From [Zimmermannella] faecalis ATCC 13722 (GTDB lineage Bacteria; Actinomycetota; Actinomycetes; Actinomycetales; Microbacteriaceae): a stretch of DNA of 64,000 nt. The first letter of the stretch is position 1, and each line of letters begins with the position of its first letter. The notes under the pieces are model-generated. The model was not told the origin of the DNA and searched no databases. It saw nothing but the letters and a program-made list of their open reading frames with translations. This document shows positions 6,205-43,540 of this stretch, piece by piece. The stretch lies in the NCBI RefSeq assembly GCF_000381765.1, contig NZ_KB907074.1, positions 1 through 64,000 on the forward strand. The letters run 5' to 3'. Made by a program: the position numbers and the translations under genes.

Positions 6205-6210
6205 TAATCC

Positions 6211-7904
<1,694 letters not shown>

Positions 7905-7908
<4 letters not shown>

Positions 7909-9460: not shown

Positions 9461-9474
9461 ACTAGTCGAGTGAA

Positions 9475-10026: not shown

Positions 10027-10329
10027 CGCATCCCCCTGAGCTACCCGTTGCTCGTGGACCCTACCCGGGCATCTTGACGCGCTCGCGCATCCGCTGCCCG
10101 GTAGTGGCGCTGAGGGCGAGTATTGGCGCTTGATACGACAACTGGCGCTGTCAGGACGGCGCCAGTTGTCGCTAGCGGCGCCAGTGGCCGAGCCGCAGGC
10201 TCAAACTTAAGGTTCAACCTGTACTTGAGGTGCAGTGGGGTGGAAGCGGCGAGGCTGCACGGGCGTCTCGGGGGCGGTGCCTACTATTTGGAAACGCGTG
10301 ATCATCATGTCGAAAAGGAGGCGGCGCCT
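10027..10329. promoter_or_regulatory. divergent intergenic region upstream of parA
   Basis: 303 bases without a gene between the divergent membrane-protein gene and parA. It holds the TGGCGC half-site array (10105-10183), a short palindrome AGGTTCAACCT at 10210-10220, a possible -10 hexamer TACTAT at 10282-10287, and the parA Shine-Dalgarno AAGGAGG at 10315-10321, eight bases before the GTG. No clear -35 box is seen. Confidence 0.6.
10105..10183. repeat. array of five TGGCGC half-sites with 19-bp spacing
   Basis: TGGCGC occurs at 10105, 10124 and 10143, and its complement GCGCCA at 10159 and 10178. The direct copies are exactly 19 bases apart and so are the two inverted copies. The central pair forms a perfect 11-bp inverted repeat (10138-10148 with 10159-10169, arms ACAACTGGCGC). 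No T-run follows, so this is more like a protein-binding array than a terminator. It lies in the divergent promoter region upstream of parA-scpA-scpB. Confidence 0.65.
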
Positions 10330-12127: not shown

Positions 12128-12728
12128 TTCGTTCGACGCCGAGGCAAGCGTTTCGCCCGAGGCGACGCCGGATGCGCCTGCCGAGATCGACCTCGACCGC
12201 GCGCTCGAGGCGATGCTGTTCGTGAGTGACGAGCCCGTTCCGGTCGTCGCGCTCGCGGCAGCGGTGTCGCAGCCTGTGCGCGCGGTGCACGATGCCCTGC
12301 TGCGGCTTGTCGCGGACTATGATGGAGAGTCTGGCGGCGCGCGCCGAGGCTTCGAGCTGCGCGAGGTCGGCGGCGGCTGGCGCATGTATGTGCGTGCGGA
12401 CTTCGACGACATCGTGGGTGACTTCGTGTCGGTGCGGCAGCCGTCGAGACTCTCGCAGGCGGCGCTCGAGACCCTCACGGTGATCGCGTACCGCCAGCCC
12501 GTGACCCGCTCGCAGGTCGCGCAGGTGCGAGCCGTGAACGTCGACTCGGTCGTGCGAACCCTCGTGAGCCGGGGGCTCATCGCCGAAGCCGGCGTCGACG
12601 AGGTGACCGGCGGCACGCTGTACGCCACCACCGACCTACTCCTGCAGTTCCTCGGCATCAATTCGATCGAGGAGCTGCCCAAGATTTCCCCGTTGCTCGA
12701 CGACGGGCAGGATGGATTCCATGACTGA
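12117..12728 (+). CDS. scpB: segregation and condensation protein B
   Basis: 203 residues. Tandem winged helices: LDRALEAMLFVSDEPVPV in the first and QAALETLTVIAYRQPVTRSQ followed by RTLVSRGLIAE in the second, the hallmark of ScpB. It dimerises and binds the middle of ScpA. The start overlaps scpA; the end overlaps the rluB-like gene. Confidence 0.95.
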   Translation: MTNDSFDAEASVSPEATPDAPAEIDLDRALEAMLFVSDEPVPVVALAAAVSQPVRAVHDALLRLVADYDGESGGARRGFELREVGGGWRMYVRADFDDIVGDFVSVRQPSRLSQAALETLTVIAYRQPVTRSQVAQVRAVNVDSVVRTLVSRGLIAEAGVDEVTGGTLYATTDLLLQFLGINSIEELPKISPLLDDGQDGFHD

Positions 12729-14196
12729 CGACCACCGCCGCGCCAACGGCCGACCGAATCGCGGCCGGCCCCAGCCCGGTCGCCCGAACTTCGACCGTCG
12801 CGATGACGACCGCCCGGGCAACGGCCGGTACCGGGATGACCGGCCGCGCCGTGACGACCGGCCGCGCCGCGACGACCGATACGACGAGGACTTCCGCCGC
12901 GAACGGGCGCAAGACCGGGCCGAGCGCGAGCAGGAGCGCGATGCCGTGCGTCGGGCGACGAGCCAGCGGCCGACCGGCGGCTACTCGCTCGCCGACTTCG
13001 ACGACATCCCGTTCCAGCCGCAGCACCGCCCTGAGGGCGCGGCTGAGCCGGCTCCGCGGTCGCAGGAGGGCGTGCGCCTGCAGAAGGCGCTCTCGAACGC
13101 CGGCGTCGCGTCGCGCCGTACCGCCGAGGAGCTCATCTCGAAGGGCAAGGTGCTCGTGAACGGGAAGCGCGTCACCGAGCTCGGCACGCGCATCGACCCC
13201 GAAACCGACAAGGTCATCGTGAACGGCACGCCCGTGCAGTTCGACCAGACGAAGCGCTACGTCATGCTGAACAAGCCCGTCGGCGTCGTGTCGACGATGC
13301 GCGATGAGCAGGGGCGCCCCGACCTGCGGGAGTTCACCGACCAGTTCGCCGAGCGCGTCTACAACGTCGGCCGACTCGACGCCGAGACGAGCGGCCTGCT
13401 CATTCTCACGAACGATGGCGAGCTCGCGCACGTGCTCGCGCATCCGTCGTTCGGCGTCACGAAGACCTATGTCGCGAAGGTGCGCGGCAAGTTCTCGCCG
13501 GGCAAGCTCAAGCAGCTGCTCGACGGGTTCGAGCTCGAAGACGGCTTCATCAAGGCCGACGCCGGGCACATCGTCGACCGCGAGAGTGGTGGCCGCACGA
13601 CGCTCGTCGAGGTGACCCTGCACTCTGGCCGCAACCGCATCGTGCGCCGCATGTTCGACTACGTCGGGCATCCGGTCGAGGAGCTCGTGCGGCGCAGCTT
13701 TGGTCCGCTGCAGCTCGGCACGCTCGCCGCGGGCGACCTGCGCGAGCTGACGAGCGAGGAGCTCGGCCGGCTGCTGCGGCTCGGCAAGCGCGCCGAACGC
13801 AACCTCGAGCGCGACCGCGGCGAGGGCCGCGACGCGCGCGGCGGCGAGAGCCGGGATGTCCGCGGTCGCGGTCGTCCGCAGCAACAGCGACGTCGGCAGT
13901 CGCCCGCGGGCGCTCCGCGACGCGACGAGCGGAATGCGCCGCGCCGGAACGATCGTGGCGATCGCCGCGATGACTTCCGTGGTGACCGGCGCGACGACTT
14001 CCGTGGCGACCGGCGCCGGAACGACCGGGAGGCGCCGCGCCGCAATGACCGTGGCGATCGCCGCGATGACTTCCGTGGTGACCGTCGCGATGATTTCCGC
14101 AGCGACCGCGGCCGCAACGACCAGCGTGGCCGGGGCCGTGGCGGCAATCCGCGCGGCGGTCAGGCCCGCGGCGGTAACCGATACGGAGGTCGCTAG
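12721..14196 (+). CDS. RluB/RsuA-type pseudouridine synthase with long charged tails
   Basis: 491 residues, about twice the usual length. The start chosen is ATG 12721 (AGGA well spaced upstream); ATG 12712, three codons earlier, is the alternative. The core holds an S4 domain (VRLQKALSNAGVASRR) and the catalytic domain with GRLDAETSGLLILTNDG, whose Asp is the nucleophile; it converts uridine to pseudouridine in rRNA. Both ends are extended: an Asp/Arg-rich N-terminus (about 115 residues) and an Arg/Asp/Gly-rich C-terminus (about 130 residues) with iterated RGDRRDDF units, likely disordered RNA-binding tails. The stop overlaps the tyrA GTG. Confidence 0.93.
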   Translation: MTDDHRRANGRPNRGRPQPGRPNFDRRDDDRPGNGRYRDDRPRRDDRPRRDDRYDEDFRRERAQDRAEREQERDAVRRATSQRPTGGYSLADFDDIPFQPQHRPEGAAEPAPRSQEGVRLQKALSNAGVASRRTAEELISKGKVLVNGKRVTELGTRIDPETDKVIVNGTPVQFDQTKRYVMLNKPVGVVSTMRDEQGRPDLREFTDQFAERVYNVGRLDAETSGLLILTNDGELAHVLAHPSFGVTKTYVAKVRGKFSPGKLKQLLDGFELEDGFIKADAGHIVDRESGGRTTLVEVTLHSGRNRIVRRMFDYVGHPVEELVRRSFGPLQLGTLAAGDLRELTSEELGRLLRLGKRAERNLERDRGEGRDARGGESRDVRGRGRPQQQRRRQSPAGAPRRDERNAPRRNDRGDRRDDFRGDRRDDFRGDRRRNDREAPRRNDRGDRRDDFRGDRRDDFRSDRGRNDQRGRGRGGNPRGGQARGGNRYGGR

Positions 14197-27261: not shown

Positions 27262-27338
<77 letters not shown>

Positions 27339-27755: not shown

Positions 27756-28937
27756 ATGAGCCGCCCACGCCTCACTATCGGCACCTTCGGCACGATCGGG
27801 TTTCAGACCTCTTCGAACGGTCGCGTGACCGCCCGCGCGAGGTATCGCGACTGGGATGGAAAGTCACGCCTCGTGCAAGCCACCGGTGACACGAAGCGCG
27901 CCGCCGAACAACGGTTGAAAGCAAAGCTTGCCGAGCGCACGCTCTACCAGCCCGCAGGTATCGGGCTGACCGCCGACAGTCCGTTCCCCGACCTGGTGGC
28001 GTACTGGCTTGAAGATCTCGATCTTGAAGACCGGCTCTCGACCACGACCCGCCAGCTGTACGAACGCAACATGCGCACGCTCGTCATGCCCGCGTTCAAA
28101 GACCTCACGCTGCGTGAGATCGGCGTGGCACGCTGCGACCATTTCTTGAAGCAGCTGGCGAAGCAAAGCTACAACCGTGCCAAGCAGGCCCGAGTCGCAT
28201 TGCGGCTCGCGCTCGGGCTCGCGGTGCGGCACGAGGTGCTGCCGCGCAACCAGATGGATCACGTCTCACGGCTCCGGAAACCCCCGACGACACCGAACGC
28301 ACTCACCCCCGCTGAGGTGAACGCAATCCGCACCGCGATCGCGTTCTGGGAAACCGGGCTCTCACCCACCGGGCCGAAACCAGACGGGCAGCTCAGCGCG
28401 ATCGTCGAGGTGATGCTCGGCACGTCGGCCCGCATCGGTGAGGTGCTCGCGATCCGCCGCCGCGATATCGACATCGTGAGCGCCCCGCCGTCGATTCGCA
28501 TTAGCGGCACCATCGTCGCGCACCGCGGCGAGCCGACCCAGCGGCAGGATCATCCCAAGACCGCGAAGTCCAGACGCACCGTCGCACTCCCCGCGTTCGC
28601 TGCCGAGGCGGTGCGGCTCAGGCTCGCCCGCCGTGACGACGCCACGCTCGATGCACTGTTGTTCTGCAATCGTGACGGTGGCCCGCTGACGACGAACAAT
28701 GTGCGCAGGCAGCTTCGGCACGTGCTCGACCTCGCGGGCATCGAGGGCGTCACACCGCACATGTTTCGTCGCACGGTTGCCACCGCAATCAGCAATGAGG
28801 CTGGCGTCGACCTTGCCGCCGAGCTGCTTGGACACACGGACCCGGCGATCACGGTGCAGCACTACATCCGCCGCAACGAGATGGTCAACCCGGCGACCGC
28901 CGAAATGCTCGACCGTGTCTTCGGGAAGGAGGCGTGA
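27756..28937 (+). CDS. int: tyrosine recombinase / integrase of the element
   Basis: 393 residues. N-terminal arm-type DNA-binding segment (ARARYRDWDGKSRLVQATGD), a core-binding domain (about 75-180), and a catalytic domain with Arg in GTSARIGE, HMFRRTVAT, His in LLGHTDPAIT and Tyr in VQHYIRR. All catalytic residues are intact, so the element may still be mobile. Located next to attL, as expected for a tRNA-targeting integrase. Confidence 0.95.
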   Translation: MSRPRLTIGTFGTIGFQTSSNGRVTARARYRDWDGKSRLVQATGDTKRAAEQRLKAKLAERTLYQPAGIGLTADSPFPDLVAYWLEDLDLEDRLSTTTRQLYERNMRTLVMPAFKDLTLREIGVARCDHFLKQLAKQSYNRAKQARVALRLALGLAVRHEVLPRNQMDHVSRLRKPPTTPNALTPAEVNAIRTAIAFWETGLSPTGPKPDGQLSAIVEVMLGTSARIGEVLAIRRRDIDIVSAPPSIRISGTIVAHRGEPTQRQDHPKTAKSRRTVALPAFAAEAVRLRLARRDDATLDALLFCNRDGGPLTTNNVRRQLRHVLDLAGIEGVTPHMFRRTVATAISNEAGVDLAAELLGHTDPAITVQHYIRRNEMVNPATAEMLDRVFGKEA

Positions 28938-29557
28938 AGTCGGCGTTGATCGGGACGCAACTTTGACGTACGTTGGCTACATAGTTGCCGCGCTAGGAGC
29001 TGCGCCGTCAAGCATCGCGCACATATCTGGTGCGAGTTCACGGTCACGCAAATTTTGCGGCACAGTGACGAAACCCGCGGAATTTGAGGTTCCGCCGAAT
29101 CGGCGGAACCGTTGATCCTGTGAAATAGCGCTTCGTGCGGGTTTCGGTATGACGGTTGAGAGTGAGCGAGTCCGTTACGACCGCATGCTTGGCCGTCCCG
29201 CCCAGGGCTACTTCGAACACGCAAGAGTTCGACCTGGGCATGACAGTCTCCTCCCGCTAATGCTCATTCCCATGAATTAGGTGCACGGCTTCTCCCAGCC
29301 GCCAATCACCCGTCCCCTCGATCAACCGATCCCAAAGCTGCCACGCCTCTGGCAGATCGAGGAAAGGGCGATTCAAGGAGATCGTTTTGGGTCGCTCGTC
29401 CGTGATCTGCCAGACGCGTGGCGACGAATCAGCGACCTGCTGAGTATCAGAATCTCGTTCAGTCTGAAGCACCTGCTTTGCTCCGCCAAGACCTGCCTTA
29501 CTCCGATAAGATCCTGTCAAGCGAGGTTTCTGATGCGCGTACTAAAGAGGAGCGGAT
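28938..29557. other. 620-base gap between integrase and defence operon
   Basis: No gene I can defend. It holds a perfect 11-bp palindrome with one central base at 29088-29110 (arms GGTTCCGCCGA), which may end the integrase transcript. A minus-strand frame of 87 codons (29257-29520) has a plausible tail but no recognised motif and no good Shine-Dalgarno. A -10-like TAAGAT at 29507-29512 could serve the operon starting at 29558. Confidence 0.5.
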
Positions 29558-29746
29558 GTGGCTGAACCATGGCTCTCGGCCGATGAGATCGCCACACACC
29601 TCGGCGTTTCCAAAGACACCGTGTACGCATGGATCAGCGCGCAAAACATGCCCGCCCACAAGGTTGGGCGGCTGTGGAAGTTTCAGACAAGCGAAGTTGA
29701 CGAGTGGGTGCGCCAAGGCGGCGCCTCGACAAAGGAGAACGAATAG
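29558..29746 (+). CDS. small HTH DNA-binding protein heading the defence operon
   Basis: 62 residues from a GTG with AGAGGAG upstream. LSADEIATHLGVSKDTVYAWI and HKVGRLWKFQTSEVDEWV form a complete Xis/MerR-like winged helix (HTH_17). The next gene begins four bases after its stop, so it belongs to the methyltransferase operon, not to the integration module. It may be an operon regulator like the controller proteins of restriction-modification systems; that is inference. Confidence 0.85.
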   Translation: MAEPWLSADEIATHLGVSKDTVYAWISAQNMPAHKVGRLWKFQTSEVDEWVRQGGASTKENE

Positions 29747-29749
29747 CCG

Positions 29750-31888
29750 ATGTCACGACTCACGGATCTACTCCGTCAACTGCGCAGTGCCGACCCTCAG
29801 CTCGGTGCGGATCTCGAAAAGGAGATCACCGCGCTCACGAAGCGACGCAGCTTCGGACTGGTTTTCGAACGCCACCAGCCCGAGGCCGTCGAACTACCCG
29901 GCCAACCTATACGCCGCGGATCGAAGGTGCGTGTGCTTCCGCTGCGAGGAGAGACCGCCAAGGGCGACTCACGGCTCTGGCGCGTCGAATCCTTCACGTT
30001 TGATGAGAGCGGTGCGCAACTCGCGCAGTTAGTCGAGCACGTCACCGATGAGCCCGAGCGGCGTACTGCTTCGCTTGACAATCTCGTAGTCGTCGCTGAG
30101 TTCGACGACAAGATCTTCCCCGGTCTCGTTGAGACCGGGCGGATCGAGCGCGGCGGCGACAAGCCTTTCCACACGGTGATCAACGCTGAGAACTACCACG
30201 CCCTCGAAATGCTCACGTACACGCATCGAGGCAAGATCGACGCAATCTATATTGACCCTCCTTACAACACTGGTGCTCGCGACTGGAAGTACAACAACGA
30301 CTACGTCGAGGGCGACGACGACTACCGTCATTCGAAGTGGCTGGCCTTCATGGAACGCAGGTTGCTAGTCGCCAATGAGCTGCTAAACCCGAACGATTCG
30401 GTACTTATTGTCACAATTGATGAGAAAGAGTACCTACGACTTGGTCTGCTATTGGAGCAGACGTTCCCTCAAGCCAATATTCAGATGATCTCATCCGTCA
30501 TCAATCCCGCTGGTGTCGCACGCGGTGGCGAGTTTGCGCGTACTGATGAGTACATTTTCCTTGTAATGATCGGTGATGCACGCCCGCTGCCTGCCGCTCT
30601 AGCTCCAGAGTGGCTTGGCAAAATTGGTAGCTCCGTAAAGAACAAGTTGCACTGGAATGCTCTTGTCCGGACAGGCACGAATTCACGTCGTGTAGATCGT
30701 CCTAACCTATTCTATCCCATTTATGTCTCCGAGTCAGGGCAATCAATTCTCAGCGTTGGGGAGCCGCTTGCTCTGGAAGATTCGCGCGATGATGTTCCTG
30801 CACCCGAAGGCGCGAGAGTGATCTGGCCGCTCAAAGCCAATGGCGAGGAAGCCAATTGGCAAATCTCCCCTGTAGCACTTCGGAGTTCAATCGAATCTGG
30901 GTATGTCCGCCTCGGACGGCTCACAGAACGAGGCATGGCGATTTCGTACTTAAAGAGTGGTGAGCGCAAAAAGATTGAGGCTGGCTTATTTCCAGTAGTG
31001 GGTCACCGGCCTGACGGATCCGTGCTTGTTGACGAGTCGGAATATGTAGCGAAGTTCATTCCCGGAACACAATGGTCAATTCCATCGCACGATGCAAGCC
31101 GCAACGGATCTAACCTACTTTCATCCCTCATGCCGGATAGAAAATTCCCTTTTCCAAAGTCCCTATACGCCGTCGAAGACGTTCTTCGCTTCTTTGTAAG
31201 TAACAAACCTTCTGCTGTGATACTGGATTTCTTCTCAGGGTCTGGCACGACAGCAAATGCTGTGATGCGACTGAATCGTCAGGACCGCGGCCGACGCCAA
31301 TGCATTTCAGTTACCAATAACGAGGTCAGCGCCGAGGAGCAAAGTAAGCTCCGCAAGCAGGGTCTTCGCCCTGGCGATCCCGAATGGGAGAAGTGGGGAA
31401 TCTGCAACTACATCACAAAGCCCCGCATCCGTGCCGCGATCACCGGCCGTACGCCTGATGGCGAACCGATCAAGGGCGACTATAAATTCACTGACGAGTT
31501 TCCAATGGCCGATGGGTTCGATGAGAACGCCGTGTTCTTCACCCTGACTTACGAGTCGCCGCTCTCAGTGCGCCACAACCGTGCTTTCGAGCGCATCGCG
31601 CCAATGCTGTGGATGCGAGCGGGATCCACAGGTCGGATAATCGGTGACCTCGGCGACCGAGGCTGGGAAATCTCCGAGGTGTACGCAGTGCTGGAGAATA
31701 TCGACAACGCTGAAGCCTTCTTCTCCGCGATACGCGACGCCGAGGATGTACGCACGGTGTTCGTCATCACCGACGATGATGCCGCGTTCCAGATGGTCTG
31801 CCGTGAACTCCCGTCGGAGCTTGACATGGTACGGCTCTACGAGTCGTACCTGCAGAACTTTGAGATTAATCAGGGGCGTGCAGTCTGA
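29750..31888 (+). CDS. type III-like DNA adenine methyltransferase (Mod-like)
   Basis: 712 residues. Catalytic motif IDPPYNTG at residues 168-173 precedes the SAM-binding motif DFFSGSGTTANAV at about 493, the beta-class N6-adenine order used by type III Mod subunits. The roughly 320 residues between them should hold the target recognition domain; there the DNA is visibly more AT-rich (about 30390-31330) and includes rare codons such as TTA. About 200 residues after the SAM motif form an extra C-terminal domain (YITKPRIRAAITGRTPDG). The stop overlaps the helicase ATG by one base. Likely modifies host DNA and, with the next gene, forms a restriction-like pair. Confidence 0.92.
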   Translation: MSRLTDLLRQLRSADPQLGADLEKEITALTKRRSFGLVFERHQPEAVELPGQPIRRGSKVRVLPLRGETAKGDSRLWRVESFTFDESGAQLAQLVEHVTDEPERRTASLDNLVVVAEFDDKIFPGLVETGRIERGGDKPFHTVINAENYHALEMLTYTHRGKIDAIYIDPPYNTGARDWKYNNDYVEGDDDYRHSKWLAFMERRLLVANELLNPNDSVLIVTIDEKEYLRLGLLLEQTFPQANIQMISSVINPAGVARGGEFARTDEYIFLVMIGDARPLPAALAPEWLGKIGSSVKNKLHWNALVRTGTNSRRVDRPNLFYPIYVSESGQSILSVGEPLALEDSRDDVPAPEGARVIWPLKANGEEANWQISPVALRSSIESGYVRLGRLTERGMAISYLKSGERKKIEAGLFPVVGHRPDGSVLVDESEYVAKFIPGTQWSIPSHDASRNGSNLLSSLMPDRKFPFPKSLYAVEDVLRFFVSNKPSAVILDFFSGSGTTANAVMRLNRQDRGRRQCISVTNNEVSAEEQSKLRKQGLRPGDPEWEKWGICNYITKPRIRAAITGRTPDGEPIKGDYKFTDEFPMADGFDENAVFFTLTYESPLSVRHNRAFERIAPMLWMRAGSTGRIIGDLGDRGWEISEVYAVLENIDNAEAFFSAIRDAEDVRTVFVITDDDAAFQMVCRELPSELDMVRLYESYLQNFEINQGRAV

Positions 31889-34467
31889 TGCGGTACACAC
31901 TCAAGGATTATCAAGCCGAAGCCGTCGGCAATGTACTCAAGAATCTGGCCCAGGCGAAGGACATGTACCAGCGCTACGGCTCCTTGTCGCAGTTCTCTCT
32001 TTCAGCTACCACAGGTGCTGGCAAGACGGTGATGGCCGCTGCTGTCATCGAAGCGCTCATCTCAGGGTCAGACGAGTTTGACTTCCCGGCTGACCCCGGA
32101 GCGGTAGTGCTGTGGTTCTCAGATGACCCCTCGCTGAACGAACAATCCCGCGCCCGGATTCAGGCAGCGTCCAGCGAGTTGGACTGGCGGCTGAAGCTCA
32201 TCACAAACGACTTCCGTGAAACCTCGTTTCGGCCGGGGCACGTCTACTTCCTGAACACTCAGAAGCTCAGCAGGACGTCAAACCTGGTCAAGGGCGCAGG
32301 TACCAGGATCGACCCGACGGCGACGATCGACGAGCTGACCCCTGCACCTGACGAGATGCAGTCGAACATCTACGACACGATCATCAACACCATCGAGAAC
32401 AAGGAACTCACGTTGTATCTGGTGCTTGATGAGGCGCACCGAGGCATGAAACCGCAACGGGACCGCTCGACGATCGTGCAACGACTCATCAACGGCCAAG
32501 GGCAAGTGCCGCCCATTCCGATCGTTTTTGGAATCTCCGCAACTGTGGAGCGCTTCGAGCAGGCGATGAAGTCCGTGACGGGACGCACAGCTCTACCGAG
32601 TGTCGAGGTTGACTCTGCGCTGGTGCAGGCATCCGGCCTGTTGAAGGACGATATCGTGCTGTCCATTCCAGCCGAGACCGGCGCGTTCGACACCGTGCTG
32701 CTGCGGCGTGCCGTTGACAAGATTCGTGAGGCAGGTCGCGCGTGGGATGCCTACACGCGGGAGCAGGAAGAAGCCGACTCCGTCGTACCCCTCCTCGTCG
32801 TGCAAATGGCCGACAAACCGAGCGACGAAACACTCGTGCGTACGATCGACACGATCCTCGAGTCATGGCCCGAGCTTGATCACGGCGCGATCGCGAACGT
32901 GTTCGGTGAACATCAAGACCTCAAGGTCGGCGGCTACACGATCCCGTACATCGAACCCCAGCGTGTGCAGGATTCGACGCATGTGCGGGTGCTGATCGCA
33001 AAGTCGGCGATCTCCACGGGGTGGGATTGTCCGCGGGCCGAGGTGTTGGTGTCGTTCCGCCCGGCCTCCGACCCGACCAACATCACGCAGTTGCTCGGGC
33101 GCATGATCCGCACGCCACTGGCGCGCCGCATCCCCGGCAATGAAGTTCTCAACTCGGTCGACTGCATGTTGCCCTACTTCGACCGCACCACCGCGATGCG
33201 TGTCGCTGAGATGCTCATGCACGGCGCAACTTCGAAGGACGACGAGGGCGACAGCGGCGGCGGCGAAGGACGCCGGGTGCTGTTCGACCCGGTGCTGCTC
33301 CATCCGAACCCGGATCTTCTGGCGGAGGTATGGGAGAAGTTCGAAGCTCTCCCAACCGTGACGATTCCGAAGCACCGCAGCAAACCGATCAAACGATTCA
33401 CCGCGCTCGCAGCTGCGCTCACGAAGGACAAGGTCGTCGACCAGGCACTCAAGCGCGCCCACGACGAGCTGAACAACGTCGTGGCCTCACGCGCCATGCA
33501 ATACAAGGCGCAGGTGGACCGTGCCCGTGAAGACGTGCTGACGATGTCGGGAGAGGAACTGCGTGCACGGCTCGGTGGCGGTCTGTGGGTGAACTCGTCG
33601 TTCGAGCTTGCCGCTGATACTCGCGCCATTACCGAGGCGTACAAGGTAGCCGAGCGCAACCTCAGCCCGGCGTTGTGCTCGTCGTATGTGGACTACCTGG
33701 TACCCGAAGACGCCATCGAAGATGACCTCCTGGAGGCATACATCGAAGTCGCAGCGATTGGGCTTGTGCCCGATATCGTCGCAAGCGTCGAGGCCGAAGC
33801 CGATCGTCTCGCTCGCGCATGGTTGACCGACACCCGAGTTGACCGCAAAAACCTCAGTGACGAGAAGCAAGCTGAGTATGACCGTCTCGAAGGCATGTCG
33901 ACGGAGCCCGAACGCATCAGCCTCGTCAGCCCGAAGACCGGGCAAGCAGAGGCCAAGGCACGCGAAGTCGACGGCACCGAGACTGACTTGCCGGTCTACC
34001 GCAACCACCTCATGGTCACCAACACGGGCGATTACCCGGTCGAGCTGAATTCGTGGGAACGCCACGTATTTGCCGCTGAGTCCGACAGGAATGGTTTCGT
34101 CGGGTGGTGGCGCAACCCGGATCGCGCGGTGAAGGAATCGCTCGCGATCGCGTACATGGACGGATCACGTAACTGGAAGGCGCTCAGACCCGACTTCATC
34201 TTCTTCGCAGAGGGCCAGAACGGTATCGTCGCCGATCTGGTCGACCCGCACGGTCATCACCTGGCCGACGCGATGCCGAAGCTACGCGGGCTTGCCGAGT
34301 TTGCCGAACAATATGGTGGCGAGTTCCGTCGAATCGAGTCCGTGGCTGAGACGAATGGCGTCTATCGTGTGCTCGATCTGAAGCGTGATCAAGTGCGCGA
34401 AGCGATTCGCAGCGTTCATGACGCGAAAACCTTGTACGAGTCTGACCTGGCTAGCGACTACCGGTAG
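31888..34467 (+). CDS. type III restriction-like DEAD/DEAH helicase (Res-like)
   Basis: 859 residues. Walker A TTGAGKT at 41-47, DEAH at 181-184 (LVLDEAHRG), motif III FGISAT, and motif VI QLLGRMIRT: an intact superfamily 2 motor. The C-terminal 150 residues should be the nuclease. They show RPDFIFF (Asp 769) followed by VADLVDPHG, so the expected D/ExK triad lacks its lysine (Asp 783-Leu-Val 785). It may therefore be a divergent or inactive nuclease. It shares one base with mod and is followed after 9 bases by the SNF2 gene. Confidence 0.9.
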   Translation: MRYTLKDYQAEAVGNVLKNLAQAKDMYQRYGSLSQFSLSATTGAGKTVMAAAVIEALISGSDEFDFPADPGAVVLWFSDDPSLNEQSRARIQAASSELDWRLKLITNDFRETSFRPGHVYFLNTQKLSRTSNLVKGAGTRIDPTATIDELTPAPDEMQSNIYDTIINTIENKELTLYLVLDEAHRGMKPQRDRSTIVQRLINGQGQVPPIPIVFGISATVERFEQAMKSVTGRTALPSVEVDSALVQASGLLKDDIVLSIPAETGAFDTVLLRRAVDKIREAGRAWDAYTREQEEADSVVPLLVVQMADKPSDETLVRTIDTILESWPELDHGAIANVFGEHQDLKVGGYTIPYIEPQRVQDSTHVRVLIAKSAISTGWDCPRAEVLVSFRPASDPTNITQLLGRMIRTPLARRIPGNEVLNSVDCMLPYFDRTTAMRVAEMLMHGATSKDDEGDSGGGEGRRVLFDPVLLHPNPDLLAEVWEKFEALPTVTIPKHRSKPIKRFTALAAALTKDKVVDQALKRAHDELNNVVASRAMQYKAQVDRAREDVLTMSGEELRARLGGGLWVNSSFELAADTRAITEAYKVAERNLSPALCSSYVDYLVPEDAIEDDLLEAYIEVAAIGLVPDIVASVEAEADRLARAWLTDTRVDRKNLSDEKQAEYDRLEGMSTEPERISLVSPKTGQAEAKAREVDGTETDLPVYRNHLMVTNTGDYPVELNSWERHVFAAESDRNGFVGWWRNPDRAVKESLAIAYMDGSRNWKALRPDFIFFAEGQNGIVADLVDPHGHHLADAMPKLRGLAEFAEQYGGEFRRIESVAETNGVYRVLDLKRDQVREAIRSVHDAKTLYESDLASDYR

Positions 34468-34476
34468 GGCTGCATC

Positions 34477-37356
34477 TTGGCAATACCGCTGACCGCGCAT
34501 CAGGCGAAGTTCTATGCCCACCAACTGGAGCGTTCGTACGCGTCTGATCATGTGGGAAAGCTCGCTGGGCTGCTGTTTGACGCGCAGGTTGAGCCGAAGC
34601 CGCACCAGATCGATGCGGCCCTTTTCGCACTGCAGACCTCCACCTCGCCGGGTGTCATTTTGGCGGACGAGGTGGGTCTTGGAAAGACCATCGAAGCAGG
34701 CATCGTGCTGTGCCAGTATTGGGCAGAACGCAAGCGACGGATCCTGATCATCGCGCCATCATCGCTTCGTCAGCAGTGGCGGCAGGAGCTGGATGAAAAG
34801 TTTGCGATCCCTTCGAAGTTGCTTGATTCGAAGAACAAAGACCAGCTTCTGAAACCGAGTGCGGTTCTCTCGAGTGATGTCTTGATTTGCTCGTACGAGT
34901 TTGTGCTCCGCAATGTTGATGATCTTGCCCGACACTGGGACCTTGTTGTCGCGGATGAAGCGCACCGCTTGCGTTCATTCTGGAGGGGCAGCGACGCGAA
35001 GATCGCGCAGGCCGTCTCCGAAGTGATGGGCTCGGCTCGGAAGTCGCTCCTCCTCACCGCGACGCCGCTGCAGAACCGGCTCGAAGAGCTGTACGGCCTC
35101 GTCTCCGTGTTCGATCCCGAGTTCTTTCACTCGATCGAAGGGTTCAAAGAGCGGTACGTCGACCATCCCGACGATTACGGGAACGACGATCTCTCTATGC
35201 GCATCTCTCACCTGGCGAAGAGGACGCTTCGGAAAGACGCACAGAAGTACATTCGCTTCACCGAACGGATGCCGCTCACGTTCGGTTTCATGCCGTCACC
35301 GGCAGAGCAAGACCTTTACAACAAGGTCAACGCTTACCTGCAGCGCCCAACTCTGTACGCATTCGCGAGTTCTCAGCGGCACCTGTCTGCGCTGATCCTG
35401 CGTAAACGCCTCGGCTCCTCTACGTATGCGGTTGCCTCAACGCTCGAAGGCATCGCCAACAGACTCGAAGCGGAACTACAGTCTGGCCGCCGCCGCTCGA
35501 ACCGTGGAGCGCTGGTCGATGAAGACATGACAGATGAAGAGCTCGAGGCGTCGGAGTCGGCCCTGTTCGCACTCCCGTCTCCCGAGCATGCCGAGGCTGT
35601 CGAGGCGACCCGCAAGGAGATCGCGGCTGAGGTCGAGGAGCTGCGATCTTACGCGGATCTGGCGCGATCGATCACAGTGAACCAGAAGGCTGTCAAACTC
35701 TTAGACGCTCTCGACCAGGGCTTCGCCAAGCTTGCCGAGATCGGCGCCCCACAGAAGGCGATCATCTTCACCGACTCAACGAAGACACAGGAGTACCTCG
35801 CCTCCGCACTCCGTGCGGGAGGGCGCGGTGAGGGTTTGGTGCTCTTCAACGGCGCGAACAACTCCCCCGAAGCGACCGAGATCTACCGGGCCTGGTTGGA
35901 GACAAACGAGGGGTCAGACCTGATTACAGGGAACCCGTCGGCAGACCGACGCAAGGCACTCGTCGACGAGTTCCGCGAACGCGGCACCATAATGATTGCC
36001 ACCGAAGCCGCTGCCGAGGGCATCAACTTGCAGTTCTGCTCGATGCTCGTCAACTACGACCTCCCCTGGAACCCACAGCGCGTCGAGCAACGCATCGGTC
36101 GTGTGCACCGTTTCGGTCAACAGCACAACGTGATCGTGGTGAACTTCTCCAATCAAGGAAACCTCGCCGAGGAGCGCATCCTTGAACTACTCACCGAGAA
36201 GTTCAACCTCTTCACGTCCGTCTTTGGCGCCTCAGACGAAGTGCTCGGGTCGATCGAGGACGGACTCGACTTCGAGAAGTCCATCGCCGCGATCCTTGAA
36301 CGATGCCGCACCGCAGACGACATCAATGCTGCTTTCGACGAGCTAGAGCGTCAATACGAATCTGAGATCAGCCAAGAGATGCGGTCGACTCGAGCTCGTG
36401 TCTTCGACAACCTCGACCCGAACGTGCAAGACAAACTCAAGAGCTATGACACCCAGCAGGACGTTGTGCTCAACAGGTTTGAACAGCTCTTGCTTCGTGT
36501 GACCCGCCGCCAGCTCGACTCGTTCGCCGAGTTTGATTCTGACGGTCACAACTTCACGCTCACACACGCTCCCGCCGAGGGAATTCCGACCGGAAAGTAC
36601 TTCTTCAAGTCGAAGCCGCAACTTGGCGCCCATCAGTACCGGTACGGCAGCGACCTCGGGCGATTCGTGGTGCAAACTGCGCTCGCCGAGAAGACGCCTG
36701 CGGCCAACCTCGTCTTCTCTATTGCCGACTCGGATCGAGTTGCCTCCGCTGCGCGCGAGCTTGTCGGCGAACGCGGCATTCTAACTGCCGAGCTACTGAC
36801 CTTTACGATGCGATCCGGAAGCGACACTGTTACTGAGTCCTACGTGCTCAGCGCTGGTCACACTGATAGCGGAAAGCTTCTTGACGCCGAACAGGTCGAA
36901 CAGCTTTTGGATCTCACCTGCGTGTCCATATCCGAGACTGAAGCTATCGACACGAGCATGTTGCAGGCTGCGCTCATGCAACAGAGCGAACAGTTCAACG
37001 ACGAAGTCCAGAACCGAACGGCACAGTTCAGTATTGAACAGGGCGACCTCGTGGAGTCACGGCTGAAGGACCACAAAGCCAAGTACGACGCCGAGGTGCG
37101 AAAGCTCAACAAGGAAGAGGAAGATGCACGTGCGCGAGAGCGCAGGACCGATGACCTTTCGGAGCGGCTGAAACTTCGCAAAGAAGCACAGCGCCTGGCA
37201 CGTCGGGCCGAGGCACTTTACGACGACTTCAAAGTTGAACGCGACCGGCTCCGGCAACAGGCCGACGATTACCTTGAAATGATCGAGCAGGCACTGAAGG
37301 GCACCGACGAGCGTGAGCACATTCTCACGATCCGCTGGGCGGTAGAAGCAGCATGA
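34477..37356 (+). CDS. SNF2-family DEAD/DEAH helicase
   Basis: 959 residues from a TTG start at 34477 with AGGG upstream. Walker A DEVGLGKT at about 64-71, DEAH at 160-163, LLLTATPLQNR (motif III), a C-terminal lobe with LVNYDLPWNPQRVEQRIGRVHRFGQ (motif VI region; GRVHR intact). After about residue 560 comes a long C-terminal part that ends in a charged coiled coil (about 860-940). The length and order resemble DrmD of class 1 DISARM, yet no DrmA, DrmB or DrmC genes are nearby. It is probably the DNA translocase of the defence operon. Confidence 0.9.
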   Translation: MAIPLTAHQAKFYAHQLERSYASDHVGKLAGLLFDAQVEPKPHQIDAALFALQTSTSPGVILADEVGLGKTIEAGIVLCQYWAERKRRILIIAPSSLRQQWRQELDEKFAIPSKLLDSKNKDQLLKPSAVLSSDVLICSYEFVLRNVDDLARHWDLVVADEAHRLRSFWRGSDAKIAQAVSEVMGSARKSLLLTATPLQNRLEELYGLVSVFDPEFFHSIEGFKERYVDHPDDYGNDDLSMRISHLAKRTLRKDAQKYIRFTERMPLTFGFMPSPAEQDLYNKVNAYLQRPTLYAFASSQRHLSALILRKRLGSSTYAVASTLEGIANRLEAELQSGRRRSNRGALVDEDMTDEELEASESALFALPSPEHAEAVEATRKEIAAEVEELRSYADLARSITVNQKAVKLLDALDQGFAKLAEIGAPQKAIIFTDSTKTQEYLASALRAGGRGEGLVLFNGANNSPEATEIYRAWLETNEGSDLITGNPSADRRKALVDEFRERGTIMIATEAAAEGINLQFCSMLVNYDLPWNPQRVEQRIGRVHRFGQQHNVIVVNFSNQGNLAEERILELLTEKFNLFTSVFGASDEVLGSIEDGLDFEKSIAAILERCRTADDINAAFDELERQYESEISQEMRSTRARVFDNLDPNVQDKLKSYDTQQDVVLNRFEQLLLRVTRRQLDSFAEFDSDGHNFTLTHAPAEGIPTGKYFFKSKPQLGAHQYRYGSDLGRFVVQTALAEKTPAANLVFSIADSDRVASAARELVGERGILTAELLTFTMRSGSDTVTESYVLSAGHTDSGKLLDAEQVEQLLDLTCVSISETEAIDTSMLQAALMQQSEQFNDEVQNRTAQFSIEQGDLVESRLKDHKAKYDAEVRKLNKEEEDARARERRTDDLSERLKLRKEAQRLARRAEALYDDFKVERDRLRQQADDYLEMIEQALKGTDEREHILTIRWAVEAA

Positions 37357-37396
37357 CTGAAGGCGCAGCCTTGGACGACCGAGGGAAGAGGGGGAC

Positions 37397-39439
37397 ATGA
37401 TGGCTGAACGTGCGGTCACTCGTTCGCTCTCGACCCGCATCTGGGATCCCAAGTCTCAGTCGCATTACAAAGACTTCCATGCTGTCATCCAGCTTCACCG
37501 AGAGAGTAAAGCGACACTAGGTCACCTCCCATTTGCTGCTTTTGAAGCAGCCGGGGACAAGGGACAACTCGTTCTTGGTCTCATCGACGATGAAATCGCC
37601 GGGTACGTACTTTTCAGCACGCCTCGGCAGCATCTCATCCGGCTTGTTCACGTTTGCGTTGGCGACTCTGCGCGGCGGTCCGGTTTGGCGAGAGCAATGG
37701 TGAACAAAGTCATTGACTTGAATCCTGCTCGCACGATGATCACCGCACATTGCCGCGTGGACTATGGCCTCGATGATTTTTGGCGCTCGCTCGACATGGC
37801 GCCAACGGGACAGCGGCCCGGTCGCGCAAAGGCTGGGTCAACACTCACCATTTGGACGCGATCCATTGGCCAACTCGACTTATTTGAGAGCGCGCTGTAC
37901 GACTTGACAAAGCCGAAAGCTGTACTCGATTCCAACGTCATCATCGACCTCTACTCTTCTAGCACGTTCCAACGCCCTGAACGTGAAGAGTCACTCGGTC
38001 TTGAAGCGGATTGGCTCATCGGTGAAGTTGAGTTGACGATCTCCCCCGAAGTCGCCTCAGACATCGATCGATTACAACTAGAGAGCGAGCGCGACAGGGT
38101 TCGTGAGGCCTTGAATGGCCTTGTAACGCTCCGAAGAGAGGGAGGGATGCGCGGCCTCGCATCCGAACTCCTTCGAAGAATGCCGGAACGGCTCACGTCT
38201 GGCGACGCCAGCCTGGCTGATGACGTCAAGCATCTCGCCGACGCAATCCTTGCGGGAGCAGAGTTCTTCGTGACCCGTGACTCGAACCTTATTGCAGCCT
38301 GCGAGACATGGATCGAAGCCGAGTTCGGAACCGAGGTGCTGCGCCCCGTCGACCTCATTCAACGGCTGATGCCCCCAGCGCCACCGTTTAGATTCCGTTC
38401 CGAGCAACTGGAGGCTGTGGGCCTCCAGTGGGAGAAAGTCGCGTCGCTGTCATCGCGGCTCGAAGAAGCCTTCGTGGAGCGCACCTCTCGCGAGAAGGGT
38501 ACGGCTCTCCGTCGTCAGCTCCAGGCAATACTCGCCAAGCCGTCAGAGTTCGGGCTGCAGGTACTCGTCGACGAGAGATCTCGCCTGTGGGCGCTACTTG
38601 CAACTGAGCTACGTGACGCGACACTTCACGTTCCGATCCTGCGAGTCGGTAGTGGATCGCTTGGTGAAACCATCGCGTTCCAGCTGGTACGTCATCTCCG
38701 CTGGCGCGCGCTGGAGCAGGGTGCCGACAGCATCTCCATTACCGATCAAGCCCTCTCGCCGGTACTGAGGTCTGCCTTGCAGGCCGACGGTTTCACTGGG
38801 AAGGGGCCGAGCGTGAAGCTGTCCTGGCTGGCTCCACCTGATGCTGCCGCGCGAGCGATCACCGACACCGAGGTCAGCGAGTATGAGCGAATGAATTGGC
38901 CCCAGGTTCTCTTAGAACGCAACATTCCAGTCTATATCGTACCTATCCAGCCCAGGTACGCACGCGAACTCATCGGTTACAACGACACTCTGTTCAATAC
39001 CCGTGAGAAGCGAGCACTGGGCTTCGCACGGCACGTCGTCTACTTCGCCGCTCCGAAGGGAGTCCAAGAGGTGCCTTCGCGCGTTTTGTGGTACGTCAGC
39101 TGGGACCCGAAGGGGCATAAGGCTTCAGCTGTCCGTGCCGTGGTTGCACATTCCCGCGTCGTGGAGGCAACGACGCTTCCAGTAGAAGCAGCCATTGAGC
39201 AGTATCGAGCGATCGGAACACTACGGACCAGAGAGATCGAAGCACACGCAACGAACGGGAAAGTCGCGGTACTGCGGGTCGAGGATACACAGCTACTCGA
39301 AAGGCCCATTGATCGCGCGACATTCGATCGCATCCTGAAGAAGCACGACGTGACAACTTCCAAGATCACCGCCCGTCGAGCAACACCCGGTGTGTTCGAT
39401 GACGTCATGCGCATGCAACCGAGGTGGGCTGAGCGATGA
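37397..39439 (+). CDS. GNAT-PIN-GNAT-like-PUA-like multidomain protein
   Basis: 680 residues. Residues 1-155: a GNAT fold (FAAFEAAGDKGQLVLGLIDDE, then LVHVCVGDSARRSGLARAMV, the acetyl-CoA loop). Residues 170-310: a PIN ribonuclease domain with Asp 178 (LDSNVIIDLY), Glu 218, Asp 282 and Asp 295 (FVTRDSN), spaced as in active PIN enzymes. Residues 350-480: a second GNAT-like region without a clear acetyl-CoA loop. Residues 510-660: a PUA/ASCH-like beta domain (RVLWYVSWDPKGHKASAVRAV). No named family joins all four to my knowledge. Its four-base overlap with the ASCH gene suggests the two act together, perhaps as effector and sensor. Confidence 0.85.
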   Translation: MMAERAVTRSLSTRIWDPKSQSHYKDFHAVIQLHRESKATLGHLPFAAFEAAGDKGQLVLGLIDDEIAGYVLFSTPRQHLIRLVHVCVGDSARRSGLARAMVNKVIDLNPARTMITAHCRVDYGLDDFWRSLDMAPTGQRPGRAKAGSTLTIWTRSIGQLDLFESALYDLTKPKAVLDSNVIIDLYSSSTFQRPEREESLGLEADWLIGEVELTISPEVASDIDRLQLESERDRVREALNGLVTLRREGGMRGLASELLRRMPERLTSGDASLADDVKHLADAILAGAEFFVTRDSNLIAACETWIEAEFGTEVLRPVDLIQRLMPPAPPFRFRSEQLEAVGLQWEKVASLSSRLEEAFVERTSREKGTALRRQLQAILAKPSEFGLQVLVDERSRLWALLATELRDATLHVPILRVGSGSLGETIAFQLVRHLRWRALEQGADSISITDQALSPVLRSALQADGFTGKGPSVKLSWLAPPDAAARAITDTEVSEYERMNWPQVLLERNIPVYIVPIQPRYARELIGYNDTLFNTREKRALGFARHVVYFAAPKGVQEVPSRVLWYVSWDPKGHKASAVRAVVAHSRVVEATTLPVEAAIEQYRAIGTLRTREIEAHATNGKVAVLRVEDTQLLERPIDRATFDRILKKHDVTTSKITARRATPGVFDDVMRMQPRWAER

Positions 39440-39867
39440 CCCGAGCCTTACTGTTATCGATAAAGCCGCAGTACGCTCGGGCGATCCTAGAGGGACGCAA
39501 GACGATCGAAGTACGGCGCAGGTTCCCAAACATCGATCCGGGAACCACAGTGGTTCTGTATTCAAGTTCCCCTGAGAAAGCGGTCCTCGGCACCGTGCGT
39601 CTTCGGCGAACGATCAAGATCAGCCCTGGTTGCGTGTGGGCATTGCATGGATCGGACATTGGTATTGATGAGAGCGACCTCAACGCGTATCTCGCAGGTG
39701 CTGATGAGTCGACTCTCTTGGAAGTTGACTGCCCAGAGTCCTGGGAACAACCGGTGTCGCTCAACTCACTGAGGGCCGTCCTTGGAATCGAACCATCACA
39801 GAGCTTCCGCTACCTCGCCACTGAGCAGGTGGAGCAAGCGAAGCAGCTGAGCTTTTCAAGTACCTGA
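39436..39867 (+). CDS. ASCH domain protein
   Basis: 143 residues. ALLLSIKPQYARAILEGRKTIEVRRRFP is the characteristic ASCH opening (quoted here through SIKPQYA and GRKTIEVRR), followed by the beta-barrel strands (VVLYSSSPEKAVLGTVRL). ASCH domains are PUA-like folds thought to bind RNA or modified nucleotides. The ATG overlaps the stop of the GNAT-PIN gene (ATGA). It closes the operon. It may sense modified bases for the system; inference. Confidence 0.88.
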   Translation: MTRALLLSIKPQYARAILEGRKTIEVRRRFPNIDPGTTVVLYSSSPEKAVLGTVRLRRTIKISPGCVWALHGSDIGIDESDLNAYLAGADESTLLEVDCPESWEQPVSLNSLRAVLGIEPSQSFRYLATEQVEQAKQLSFSST

Positions 39868-40257: not shown

Positions 40258-41088
40258 ATGGATAAAGCGACCCGCCCACATACTGGGGCGAAAACCGCCC
40301 CACAGAGGCGGCCGCCACGGCGCGATCTCCTGATCCCGATGCTCGAAGGCACCAGACGTGCCTTCGTTCCGATCCGTCGAGGTTTCATTCAGAAACCTCG
40401 CGGAACGGAGGGGGGTCGCGGATCAAGTCTCGCACTTCTTGCACGGGACAGTTTCGCTCTGGACGCCTATCTCCTCCTCCATGCGCTGGCATCCAGCAGC
40501 GAGCCCTATGTTGCGGCCTACCCAGCGGCGACGTGGGTGCAGATTGTGCGACTTGATGAAGCAGCGACATTCGAGGCGGGGAAGTCTCGTTGGTCAAAGG
40601 TCGTCACCAAGCTCGTTTCGCTGCGTCTGCTCGAGCGCGAACGCAAGGGCAACGAGATGCAGTACAAGCTTCTTCACGAAGCGGGTACTGGCGAGGAATA
40701 CACTCGACCCAAGAAGGCTGGAGACGGGCACTGGTTGCGCCTGCCCTACTCCTACTGGATCGATGAGTACGACGCGTCGCTCAGTCACCCCGAGAAGTTG
40801 ATGCTACTGATCGCGCTCGACCAGCAGGATGACTTTCCCCTCCCTCTCAACCAGTCCGCCAACTGGTATGGGGTATCAGAATCTACGGCGCGTCGAGGGC
40901 TTCGTGGACTGGAAGCTCGCGGCTTGCTGAGCAAGATCAGCTCGTTCGTTCCTTCGCCTCGGTCGCCCAACGGTTGGGCAGAGGAGTTCCGTTACACCCT
41001 GCAAGGCCCGTTCTCGAAGAAAGCCATCGATGACGCCCAAGCAGCGAGCCGGAAGAAGGTTCGATTCACGGAAGCAGGTGCATCATGA
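40258..41088 (+). CDS. winged-helix protein paired with DUF3800 gene
   Basis: 276 residues from a leaderless ATG. Two possible winged helices are visible: WSKVVTKLVSLRLLERERKG in the first half and LNQSANWYGVSESTARRGLRGLEARGLL in the second. Between them, RLPYSYWIDEYDASLSHPEKLMLLIALDQQDDF resembles the N-terminal part of replication-initiator or regulator proteins of mobile elements (motif quoted by its ends RLPYSYW and ALDQQDDF). It overlaps the DUF3800 gene (ATGA), so the two are one unit. Regulator or DNA-binding partner are the likely roles. Confidence 0.8.
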   Translation: MDKATRPHTGAKTAPQRRPPRRDLLIPMLEGTRRAFVPIRRGFIQKPRGTEGGRGSSLALLARDSFALDAYLLLHALASSSEPYVAAYPAATWVQIVRLDEAATFEAGKSRWSKVVTKLVSLRLLERERKGNEMQYKLLHEAGTGEEYTRPKKAGDGHWLRLPYSYWIDEYDASLSHPEKLMLLIALDQQDDFPLPLNQSANWYGVSESTARRGLRGLEARGLLSKISSFVPSPRSPNGWAEEFRYTLQGPFSKKAIDDAQAASRKKVRFTEAGAS

Positions 41089-41612
41089 GCATCCTGTTCG
41101 TGGACGAATCGAAGGCCAAGGGCTACACGATGGTTGCGGCACTGGTCGTGCCCGGCGACGTGACCAGTCTGCGTCGCGACGTGCGATCGCTGGTGCTCCC
41201 AGGCCAGCGGCGGATCCACTTCACCAAGGAACAGCCCGAGCGTAAGCGGCTGATCCTCTCTCGACTCACCGCGTTCGGTGCTCAAGCGCAGGTGTTCCAC
41301 TGTGCGACGAAGAGCCAGATTCTTGGCCGTGAGGCCTGTTTGACAGGTATCGTCGCTCATGCTGCGGAGCACGCGCACACCAAGATCGTGATTGAGCGTG
41401 ACGAATCAATCGAGAAGGCTGATCGTCAGATTCTGTTCCGTGAAGTCAGGCGTCACGGGCTTGGCGACATACTTAGCTACGCTCTCGAAGTGCCGCATCA
41501 GGAGCCGCTGCTGTGGGTAGCCGACGCGATCGCGTGGAGCTACACCAAAGGCGGAGAATGGAAGAAACGCGCCGACCCGCTCATCGCGGGGATTACCAAG
41601 CTGTCGCCATGA
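41085..41612 (+). CDS. DUF3800 domain protein
   Basis: 175 residues. FVDESKAKGYTMVAALVVPG opens it and LLWVADAIAWSY closes it, the acidic blocks by which the DUF3800 family is known; the fold is predicted RNase H-like, with Asp 6 and Glu 7 and the late Asp as candidate metal ligands. It is shorter than many family members. DUF3800 genes recur in mobile elements and near defence genes. Its upstream partner overlaps it by four bases. Confidence 0.82.
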   Translation: MSILFVDESKAKGYTMVAALVVPGDVTSLRRDVRSLVLPGQRRIHFTKEQPERKRLILSRLTAFGAQAQVFHCATKSQILGREACLTGIVAHAAEHAHTKIVIERDESIEKADRQILFREVRRHGLGDILSYALEVPHQEPLLWVADAIAWSYTKGGEWKKRADPLIAGITKLSP

Positions 41613-42031: not shown

Positions 42032-42066
42032 CAAGGGGTCGCAGGTTCAAATCCTGTCAGCCCGAC
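42032..42066. repeat. attR: 35-bp direct repeat of the tRNA-Pro 3' end
   Basis: Identical over 35 bases to 27302-27336. It is preceded by island sequence, so there is no tRNA 5' half here. The bases after it are CCCGAC-ATAA, not CCCGAC-CAAA. Confidence 0.93.
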
Positions 42067-42664: not shown

Positions 42665-43540
42665 TTAGGCCGCGAGTGTGAGCGGCTCGGTTAGCTTCGC
42701 TTCGAACTCGATGGGCGTCAAGCCGCCGAGGGTGTCCTGGGCGCGCTGGCGGTGGTACTTCCGCTCGATCCAGACGACGATCGCGAGTCGCAGGTCCTGC
42801 CGTGTGTCCCAGCGCTGCTGGTTGAGCACGTTGGTTTGGAGGAGCGACCAGAAGCTCTCCATGGCGGCGTTGTCGCCCGCTGCGCCGACGCGGCCCATCG
42901 AACCGACCATGTCGTGACGGCGGAGCTCACGGGCCATCGCTCGGCTTCGAAACTGGCTACCTCTGTCGGCGTGCCGGATGCAGCCGGCGACGTCACCGCG
43001 GCGCGTGACGGCATTGCGGACGGTATCGACGGCGAGCTTCGCAGTCATTCGATCTGAGATCGAGTACCCGACGATTCGGTTGGAGAACACGTCTTTGATC
43101 GCGCAGCAGTACAGCTTGCCTTCGCTCGTCCAATGCTCCGTGATATCCGTGAGCCAGAGCCGGTTCGGCGCGTCGGCGCGGAACTGTCGCTGGACGTGGT
43201 CGTCGAACACGGGCGGGCCGGCCTTCTTGCCCTTCCCGCGACGACGGCGCTGCTCGGACGAGAGGATCCCCGCCTGCGAGCACAGCTTCCACGCCGTCCG
43301 TCTGCTCATCCGCCACCCCGCCCGGCGGGCTTCGTCGGCAAGGTATCGATAACCGAACGTCGGGTCGTCGTGGTGAGCGTCATGCAGCGCGTTGATCCGA
43401 TGCGCACGGAGCACGTCCGCATCCCGGACGGGATCGTTGCGCCACCGGTAGTAGGGCTGTCTCGCGAGCTTGAGAACCCGACACGACACCGACACGGGGA
43501 TCCCCGCCTCAGCGAGCTCAGATACGAGCGGGTACGTCAT
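42665..43540 (-). CDS. IS3-family transposase, OrfB
   Basis: 291 residues. An HTH_21-type segment precedes the rve integrase core with the DDE triad: Asp in WLTDITEHW, Asp in IRHADRGSQF, Glu in DNAAMESFWSLL. The start ATG lies in the orfA stop (AAAATGA); an A4 run makes a -1 frameshift onto a fused OrfAB possible as well as translational coupling. Confidence 0.93.
   Translation of the reverse strand: MTYPLVSELAEAGIPVSVSCRVLKLARQPYYRWRNDPVRDADVLRAHRINALHDAHHDDPTFGYRYLADEARRAGWRMSRRTAWKLCSQAGILSSEQRRRRGKGKKAGPPVFDDHVQRQFRADAPNRLWLTDITEHWTSEGKLYCCAIKDVFSNRIVGYSISDRMTAKLAVDTVRNAVTRRGDVAGCIRHADRGSQFRSRAMARELRRHDMVGSMGRVGAAGDNAAMESFWSLLQTNVLNQQRWDTRQDLRLAIVVWIERKYHRQRAQDTLGGLTPIEFEAKLTEPLTLAA

Follow-up and report, generated by a model that had tools for sequence, protein, structure and literature searches.

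The window, that is, the whole 64,000-nucleotide stretch of [Zimmermannella] faecalis ATCC 13722 that was analysed, contains a 14.7-kb element integrated at a tRNA-Pro gene. The ends of the element are perfect copies of a 35-bp direct repeat derived from tRNA-Pro. The left copy (attL, 27302..27336, plus strand) lies inside tRNA-Pro(ggg) at 27262-27338, and the right copy (attR) occupies 42032..42066 on the same strand. The tyrosine integrase of the element is encoded on the plus strand at 27756..28937 (PF00589, 78.2 bits). Six plus-strand genes are located inside the element, where an earlier note on this DNA had placed them, and their ORFs, the tRNA-Pro gene and the repeat were all found. They encode a 62-aa HTH_17 or excisionase-type regulator (29558..29746), a 712-aa type III-like DNA methyltransferase, Mod (29750..31888), an 859-aa SF2 helicase, Res (31888..34467), a 959-aa SNF2 helicase of the DrmD/RapA type with a TTG start (34477..37356), a 680-aa protein composed of GNAT, PIN, a GNAT-like region and a PUA/EVE-like domain (37397..39439) and a 143-aa ASCH protein related to ZmASCH (39436..39867). 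The junctions are likewise as had been claimed: in gene order, a 3-base gap, one shared base, gaps of 9 and 40 bases and a 4-base overlap. Pfam families above their cut-offs in the operon are HTH_17, N6_N4_Mtase, ResIII, SNF2 with Helicase_C, GNAT and ASCH. Promoter-like and terminator-like sites did not rise above those of shuffled sequences. Pfam and NCBIfam were the only profile sets applied to the integrase and to two ORFs close to the right element end.

Close to the right element end, a DUF3800 protein is encoded at 41085-41612 (21.3 bits, cut-off 21). An IS3-family transposase gene is located on the minus strand at 42665-43540, immediately past the right att copy. In G657, a genome of the same genus, the tRNA-Pro end occurs again as a perfect copy about 8 kb from the tRNA gene (C1:1713727-1722817), and further perfect copies are present in G654, G655 and G659 of this genus. 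The tRNA-Pro gene looks like an integration hotspot in the genus of the window.

Whether the set co-occurs elsewhere had been named as a check, and an intact set in identical order was found at locus L103 in G856, a genome of another genus. The identity between the two loci is 90% for HTH, 69% for Mod, 89% for Res, 82% for SNF2, 73% for GNAT-PIN and 75% for ASCH. Over the six genes dN ranges from 0.07 to 0.23; dS is 0.97 in the short HTH gene and almost saturated in the other five, so that dN is far lower than dS in each of them. With this recurrence, the arrangement exceeds what chance would give. The DNA homology is confined to 29538-39861 of the window; it starts 20 bases upstream of the HTH gene and runs to where the ASCH gene ends. 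L103 adjoins a TrwC-type relaxase gene, and the integrase type of the window is not present there. As L103 stands beside a relaxase gene rather than the integrase of the window, the block moved as a unit between different carriers. The six-gene block is a transferable unit.

The GNAT-PIN protein was detected in 1 of 11 genomes of the window's genus (the window's own), in 5/297 genomes of the order and in 6/394 of the class, own genome included; Res and SNF2 were each found in 14/297 genomes of the order. No second full set was revealed in the neighbourhoods from the order and class samples or in nine further contig loci; in the SNF2 search of the order, 11 of the 13 other carrier genomes were inspected, with G166 and G237 (40-41% identity) left out. 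Among 249 family genomes SNF2 is carried by eight, own included, and six of the seven non-window carriers, all except G856, had no window-type set. A second family search found Res in 8/378 genomes, alongside SNF2 only in the window genome and G856. The GNAT-PIN protein was present in 3 of 72,556 plasmid records, none of them with a window-type core by the criterion used. Viral contigs, searched with single-protein patterns only, contained no relative of GNAT-PIN or Res. The full set is known from two genomes and the core from three.

The third core belongs to the genus of G856, in which 5/54 genomes have Res. At this locus, L115 in G921, the Mod-Res-SNF2 part is 93% identical to L103 at the DNA level outside a swapped domain of Mod, and the downstream flank is 94% identical. 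The G921 contig begins inside Mod, and the HTH gene and the upstream flank of L115 are outside view. The region 12773-15418 of L103, which holds GNAT-PIN and ASCH, corresponds in L115 to about 705 bases with one 159-aa ORF (DUF1643, 17.1 bits, below the cut-off of 22.5). Since L115 keeps the core and the downstream flank while the pair is swapped for another gene, the GNAT-PIN/ASCH pair behaves as an exchangeable cassette in a variable slot behind SNF2. L103 and L115 form a natural comparison within one genus, with a shared core and downstream flank and the pair set against another gene. The added value of an accessory pair to a restriction system is therefore directly testable.

The methyltransferase covers the PADLOC type III Mod model (MTase_III) over its full length with 1023 bits, and its PDB matches are Mbo45V and EcoP15I Mod. 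The DPPY motif (motif IV) is found at residue 169 and FSGSG at 495, with a variable domain between them; motif IV thus precedes motif I, as in type III Mod proteins. In residues 256-470 (30515..31159, plus strand), the window Mod is 35% identical to that of L103 and 47% to that of L115, while the other four regions show 75-93% identity (80-93% versus L103). L103 and L115 differ from each other in the same manner, with 32% in this region and 88-93% elsewhere. The DNA homology between the window and L103 is interrupted inside Mod at 30524-31130. This pattern fits a target recognition domain that has been exchanged.

The C-terminal domain of Res (residues 768-798) carries a conserved PD...DPH...K variant where PD...ExK would be expected. 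In the alignment of homologues, PD, DPH and D794 are present in 24/24 sequences and K798 in 23/24; this lysine sits in the next predicted helix after DPH. The order of C-terminal elements fits PD-(D/E)XK. The listed structure matches fall mainly on the helicase part, and no PDB sequence match was obtained for the C-terminus. The PADLOC REase_III models match the window Res weakly and partially (best 33.2 bits). From motif and predicted secondary structure, the Res C-terminus is a candidate variant PD-(D/E)XK nuclease. Res and Mod can be classed as a divergent type III-like pair. Such a PD...DPH variant would widen the known restriction-nuclease active sites and could account for the poor scores of type III Res models. 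In L138 (G881:C1, 10662-13463), a 933-aa ORF overlaps the end of a Res gene of the window-type lineage by 4 bases; by eye it resembles a UvrD-type helicase, perhaps another accessory.

The best matches of the SNF2 protein are DrmD models, with 578 bits in PADLOC and 579.7 of the 950 bits required in NCBIfam. FastTree phylogenies place the window, L103 and L115 together in a single clade, for SNF2 as well as for Res (support 1.0 each). The helicase belongs to an SNF2 clade that was examined at 16 other actinobacterial loci; its members there are accompanied by another Mod lineage in all cases and by another Res lineage in 15, and in the remaining one, L062, the contig ends before Res. The nearest SNF2 in the tree, that of L059 (support of the grouping not printed), belongs to a locus with the order Mod-Res-SNF2, as in the window. 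It is likely that a Mod-Res pair of another lineage took the place of an older one beside SNF2.

Plasmid records were inspected for 3 of 45 with SNF2 matches and 6 of 20 with Mod matches. In the three inspected for SNF2, the SNF2 family of the window accompanies Mod and Res: as HTH-SNF2-Mod-DUF262-Res in Rhizobium, as HTH-SNF2-Mod-Res in Cupriavidus, and in Deinococcus as SNF2 followed by AIPR, a regulator, VapC, Mod and Res. The HTH proteins of the Rhizobium and Cupriavidus operons are related to that of the window (30% and 41% identity, respectively). Res homologues lack a close SNF2 gene in 23 of 25 other wide loci, a count from which L038, L042, L043 and L044 were excluded as having only a partial Res gene. 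The SNF2 matches at L010 (a distant, partial SNF2-like gene, 26-33%) and at L042 (weak matches near a Res fragment) were below the half-coverage criterion.

Two other arrangements of SNF2, Mod and Res were noted. At L069 (G226:C14, 24-10320), genes for a type III-like Mod, a REase_III-type Res and DrmA come after a DrmD-like SNF2 gene, so that this neighbourhood is intermediate between DISARM and type III RM. In two SNF2-Mod-Res triads (L104, 16593-18758; L105, 352-2805), the gene after Res encodes an AAA_13 ATPase; these genes are candidate cassettes at a different position.

In the 680-aa protein, the PIN domain is sub-threshold in Pfam (16.7 bits for the whole protein and 20.7 for the cut segment, cut-off 23.6). 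PIN residues D178, D/E222 and D276 are conserved in 18/20 aligned sequences and D295 in 20/20, and these acidic residues back the assignment. The second PUA-like domain claimed in the earlier note was confirmed at the C-terminus of this protein by profile-profile comparison with the ASCH family (97.8%). The element order of the middle region resembles GNAT in the model, by eye; a second GNAT domain in residues 326-480 was found neither by Pfam nor by profile comparison with the first GNAT. Structure-search matches are almost all within residues 8-162. The match to PADLOC PDC-M11A covers residues 175-643 and is weak (25.6 bits), and the ASCH protein matches PDC-M11B with 86.2 bits.

In the ASCH family, Y42 and Q122 are conserved in 21/21 sequences and S123 in 20/21, and position 48 is K, R or M. 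Residues Y42, K48 and S123 of the window align to Tyr47, Lys53 and Ser128 of ZmASCH, which, in the part of PMC5615036 available, act in RNA binding and cleavage; ZmASCH cleaves ssRNA, and the three residues lie in its cleft. Lys53 matters in ZmASCH, yet the aligned K48 varies within the family. A role of the ASCH protein as a YqfB-like N4-acetylcytosine amidohydrolase removing a mark set by GNAT was also considered. The triad of YqfB is Lys21, Thr24 and Glu74, according to the accessible portion of PMC6972931. The proposal was rejected: the place of the nucleophile is taken by Glu25 (E in 21/21), T24 of YqfB being paired with E25 through motif spacing and not by a computed alignment.

The GNAT-PIN and ASCH genes are adjacent in 21/21 loci, in 2 of them with the window-type core and in 19 without it; L012 and L082 represent a single locus in this count, and core absence is weak evidence at L011 (less than 500 bases upstream) and L013 (an 8.3-kb contig). 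Such neighbours, PIN-GNAT-EVE with ASCH, were described in 2020 as a toxin-antitoxin or defence pair by prediction, without experiment in that text, and have been reported together with type I RM, CRISPR-Cas and a COG1743-DUF499-SNF2 system (PMC7641849, in the portion available). The last two genes of the operon are thus an already catalogued candidate pair (PDC-M11; the same portion of PMC7641849). At L014 (G231:C45, 8389-19478), the pair is located directly behind the DISARM genes DrmMI, DrmA, DrmB and DrmC, and at L009 it adjoins Eco29kI-type RM genes. In L009 and L011, which are Calothrix and Nostoc plasmids, D178 and D276 of the PIN site are lost and the gene pair is retained.

Further neighbours of the pair were seen at two loci. 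In L086 of Microbacterium sp. EST19A (2025-14158), a ThsB-like TIR gene and a caspase gene come after GNAT-PIN/ASCH, and the ORFs upstream of the pair resemble Tn7-type transposition genes by eye. In L012 (G216:C3, 11243-12613), a PIN_8 protein is encoded immediately upstream of the pair.

Mod is known to protect DNA and Mod-Res to cut unmethylated DNA, and SNF2 proteins translocate on DNA. The locus is read here, with somewhat better than even confidence, as an anti-phage operon of the restriction type that is modular, moves horizontally and adds to its core a helicase partner and a back-up cassette directed at RNA. The core would consist of the HTH regulator, Mod, Res and the SNF2 helicase. 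In the biochemical steps that we infer, the exchangeable recognition domain of Mod would define the DNA site to be methylated, and Mod would mark self DNA by methylating it. Res, probably together with Mod, would use its SF2 motor and the variant PD-(D/E)XK nuclease to cut unmethylated invading DNA, and SNF2, as a second DNA translocase, would assist in inspecting or clearing it. RNase activity is predicted for PIN and ASCH, and for the PUA-like domains the reading of nucleic acid that is modified or foreign. The pair may accordingly be pictured as a second line of RNA cleavage that would set in once the DNA-cutting core is evaded; this trigger, like phage protection itself, is part of the proposal. 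It is a reasonable inference that the PIN protein would serve as effector. The model offers no clear role for the acetyltransferase domain. PIN RNases near BREX have been read as back-up effectors (PMC12839542, in the part available), and the pair stands beside DISARM in L014 and Eco29kI-type RM in L009; both observations speak for the reading. The reading is weakened as to long-term stability by the occurrence of the full set in two genomes and of the core in three, and also by the variation at K48 of ASCH, by a nuclease assignment of the Res C-terminus drawn from motif and predicted secondary structure, and by the two cyanobacterial relatives in which the pair is retained although its PIN site is broken.

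A more far-reaching version is possible, at well under an even chance. The core, with its new nuclease site and its own SNF2 motor, might possess a standing accessory slot whose cassettes provide layered second-line immunity. The pair of the window would then sense failed restriction, signalled by modified phage nucleic acid or by inhibition of the Mod-Res-SNF2 complex, and would respond by stopping translation. If true, DNA restriction and RNA-level abortive infection would be wired into one transferable operon.

The modular reading has to be weighed against others with which it partly overlaps, so the likelihoods worded here are not exclusive of one another. A possible account, well short of an even chance, is that two independent systems are neighbours: a type III-like RM accompanied by SNF2 and, having landed downstream of it, a PIN-GNAT-EVE/ASCH pair that works by itself in toxin-antitoxin or defence function. 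It draws on the 19/21 loci where the pair occurs without the core, the 23/25 wide loci where Res has no close SNF2 and the other gene in the place of the pair in L115, as well as on the toxin-antitoxin role proposed for such pairs (PMC7641849, in the portion available). Full independence is at odds with six genes joined by tight junctions in two genera, with homology that stops at the operon limits and with the recurrence of the pair beside different modification-based systems. The same counts tell against six genes as one obligate system. That all six proteins form a machine in which every part is needed is improbable: the same genes in the same order in two genera would suit it, but both modules also occur alone, and at L115, a locus that matches in other respects, the core stands without the pair. 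Of the single anti-phage system proposed in the earlier note, the integrity of the set stood, as seen in G856, and the obligate union of the six did not, the pair being replaced in L115.

It is also rather unlikely that Res, with DPH in place of ExK, does not cleave DNA and acts as a motor only, leaving the PIN protein as the sole nuclease effector. The canonical (D/E)xK is indeed absent from the window Res, unlike the Res proteins of the SNF2-Mod-Res triads, which retain it. However, PD, DPH and D794 are invariant in all 24 homologues, mostly from loci in which no PIN protein was found, and decay would not preserve them; the lysine of the next helix is kept in all but one. The modular reading, with a cutting Res, was preferred.

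The six proteins were compared with known systems, of which DISARM is defined by drmA, drmB and drmC, and BREX by pglZ and brxC. The operon matches neither of these nor a plain type III pair, as had been claimed, since partner genes are absent and extra genes present. It resembles DISARM in having a methyltransferase and an SNF2 protein close to DrmD; unlike DISARM, it has no DrmA, DrmB or DrmC among the six, and the DrmD cut-off was missed. DISARM membership was rejected, as PADLOC gave only DrmD-like matches and general helicase similarity for the six proteins, and BREX membership, as only helicase-level BrxH matches were among those listed. The HTH protein resembles MAD1 of MADS (46 bits in PADLOC; 74.7 of the 80 bits required in NCBIfam). 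With the HTH under the NCBIfam cut-off and no other MADS protein among the matches of the six, membership in MADS was rejected too. A lead to DUF4391 operons gave nothing useful.

PDC-M11 is represented in the window by adjacent homologues of M11A (the weak match) and M11B; unlike PDC-M11, the window protein has an extra N-terminal GNAT, and the partners are a type III-like core and SNF2. The term PDC-M11 was found in no open-licence paper searched. With type III RM such as EcoP15I, the operon shares a mod gene adjoining res, the Mod order of DPPY, variable domain and FxGxG, and an SF2 Res; it differs in PD...DPH for PD...ExK and in the extra SNF2 helicase and accessory pair. The HTH-SNF2-Mod-Res operons of Rhizobium, Cupriavidus and Deinococcus plasmids, and of chromosomes from the taxonomic order of the window, contain parts of the same kinds: an HTH related to that of the window, an SNF2 of its family, Mod of type III and Res, and in some cases accessory genes. 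They differ from the window in other Mod and Res lineages and, mostly, in gene order, and the GNAT-PIN/ASCH pair was in none of those examined. No description of the gene combination was recognised in the open-licence literature, with publication elsewhere possible. Relatives are known for every part of the operon; within the literature searched, novelty lies in the way the genes are combined, in the recurrence of this set in two genera, in the loci with and without the pair in one genus, and in the PD...DPH variant.
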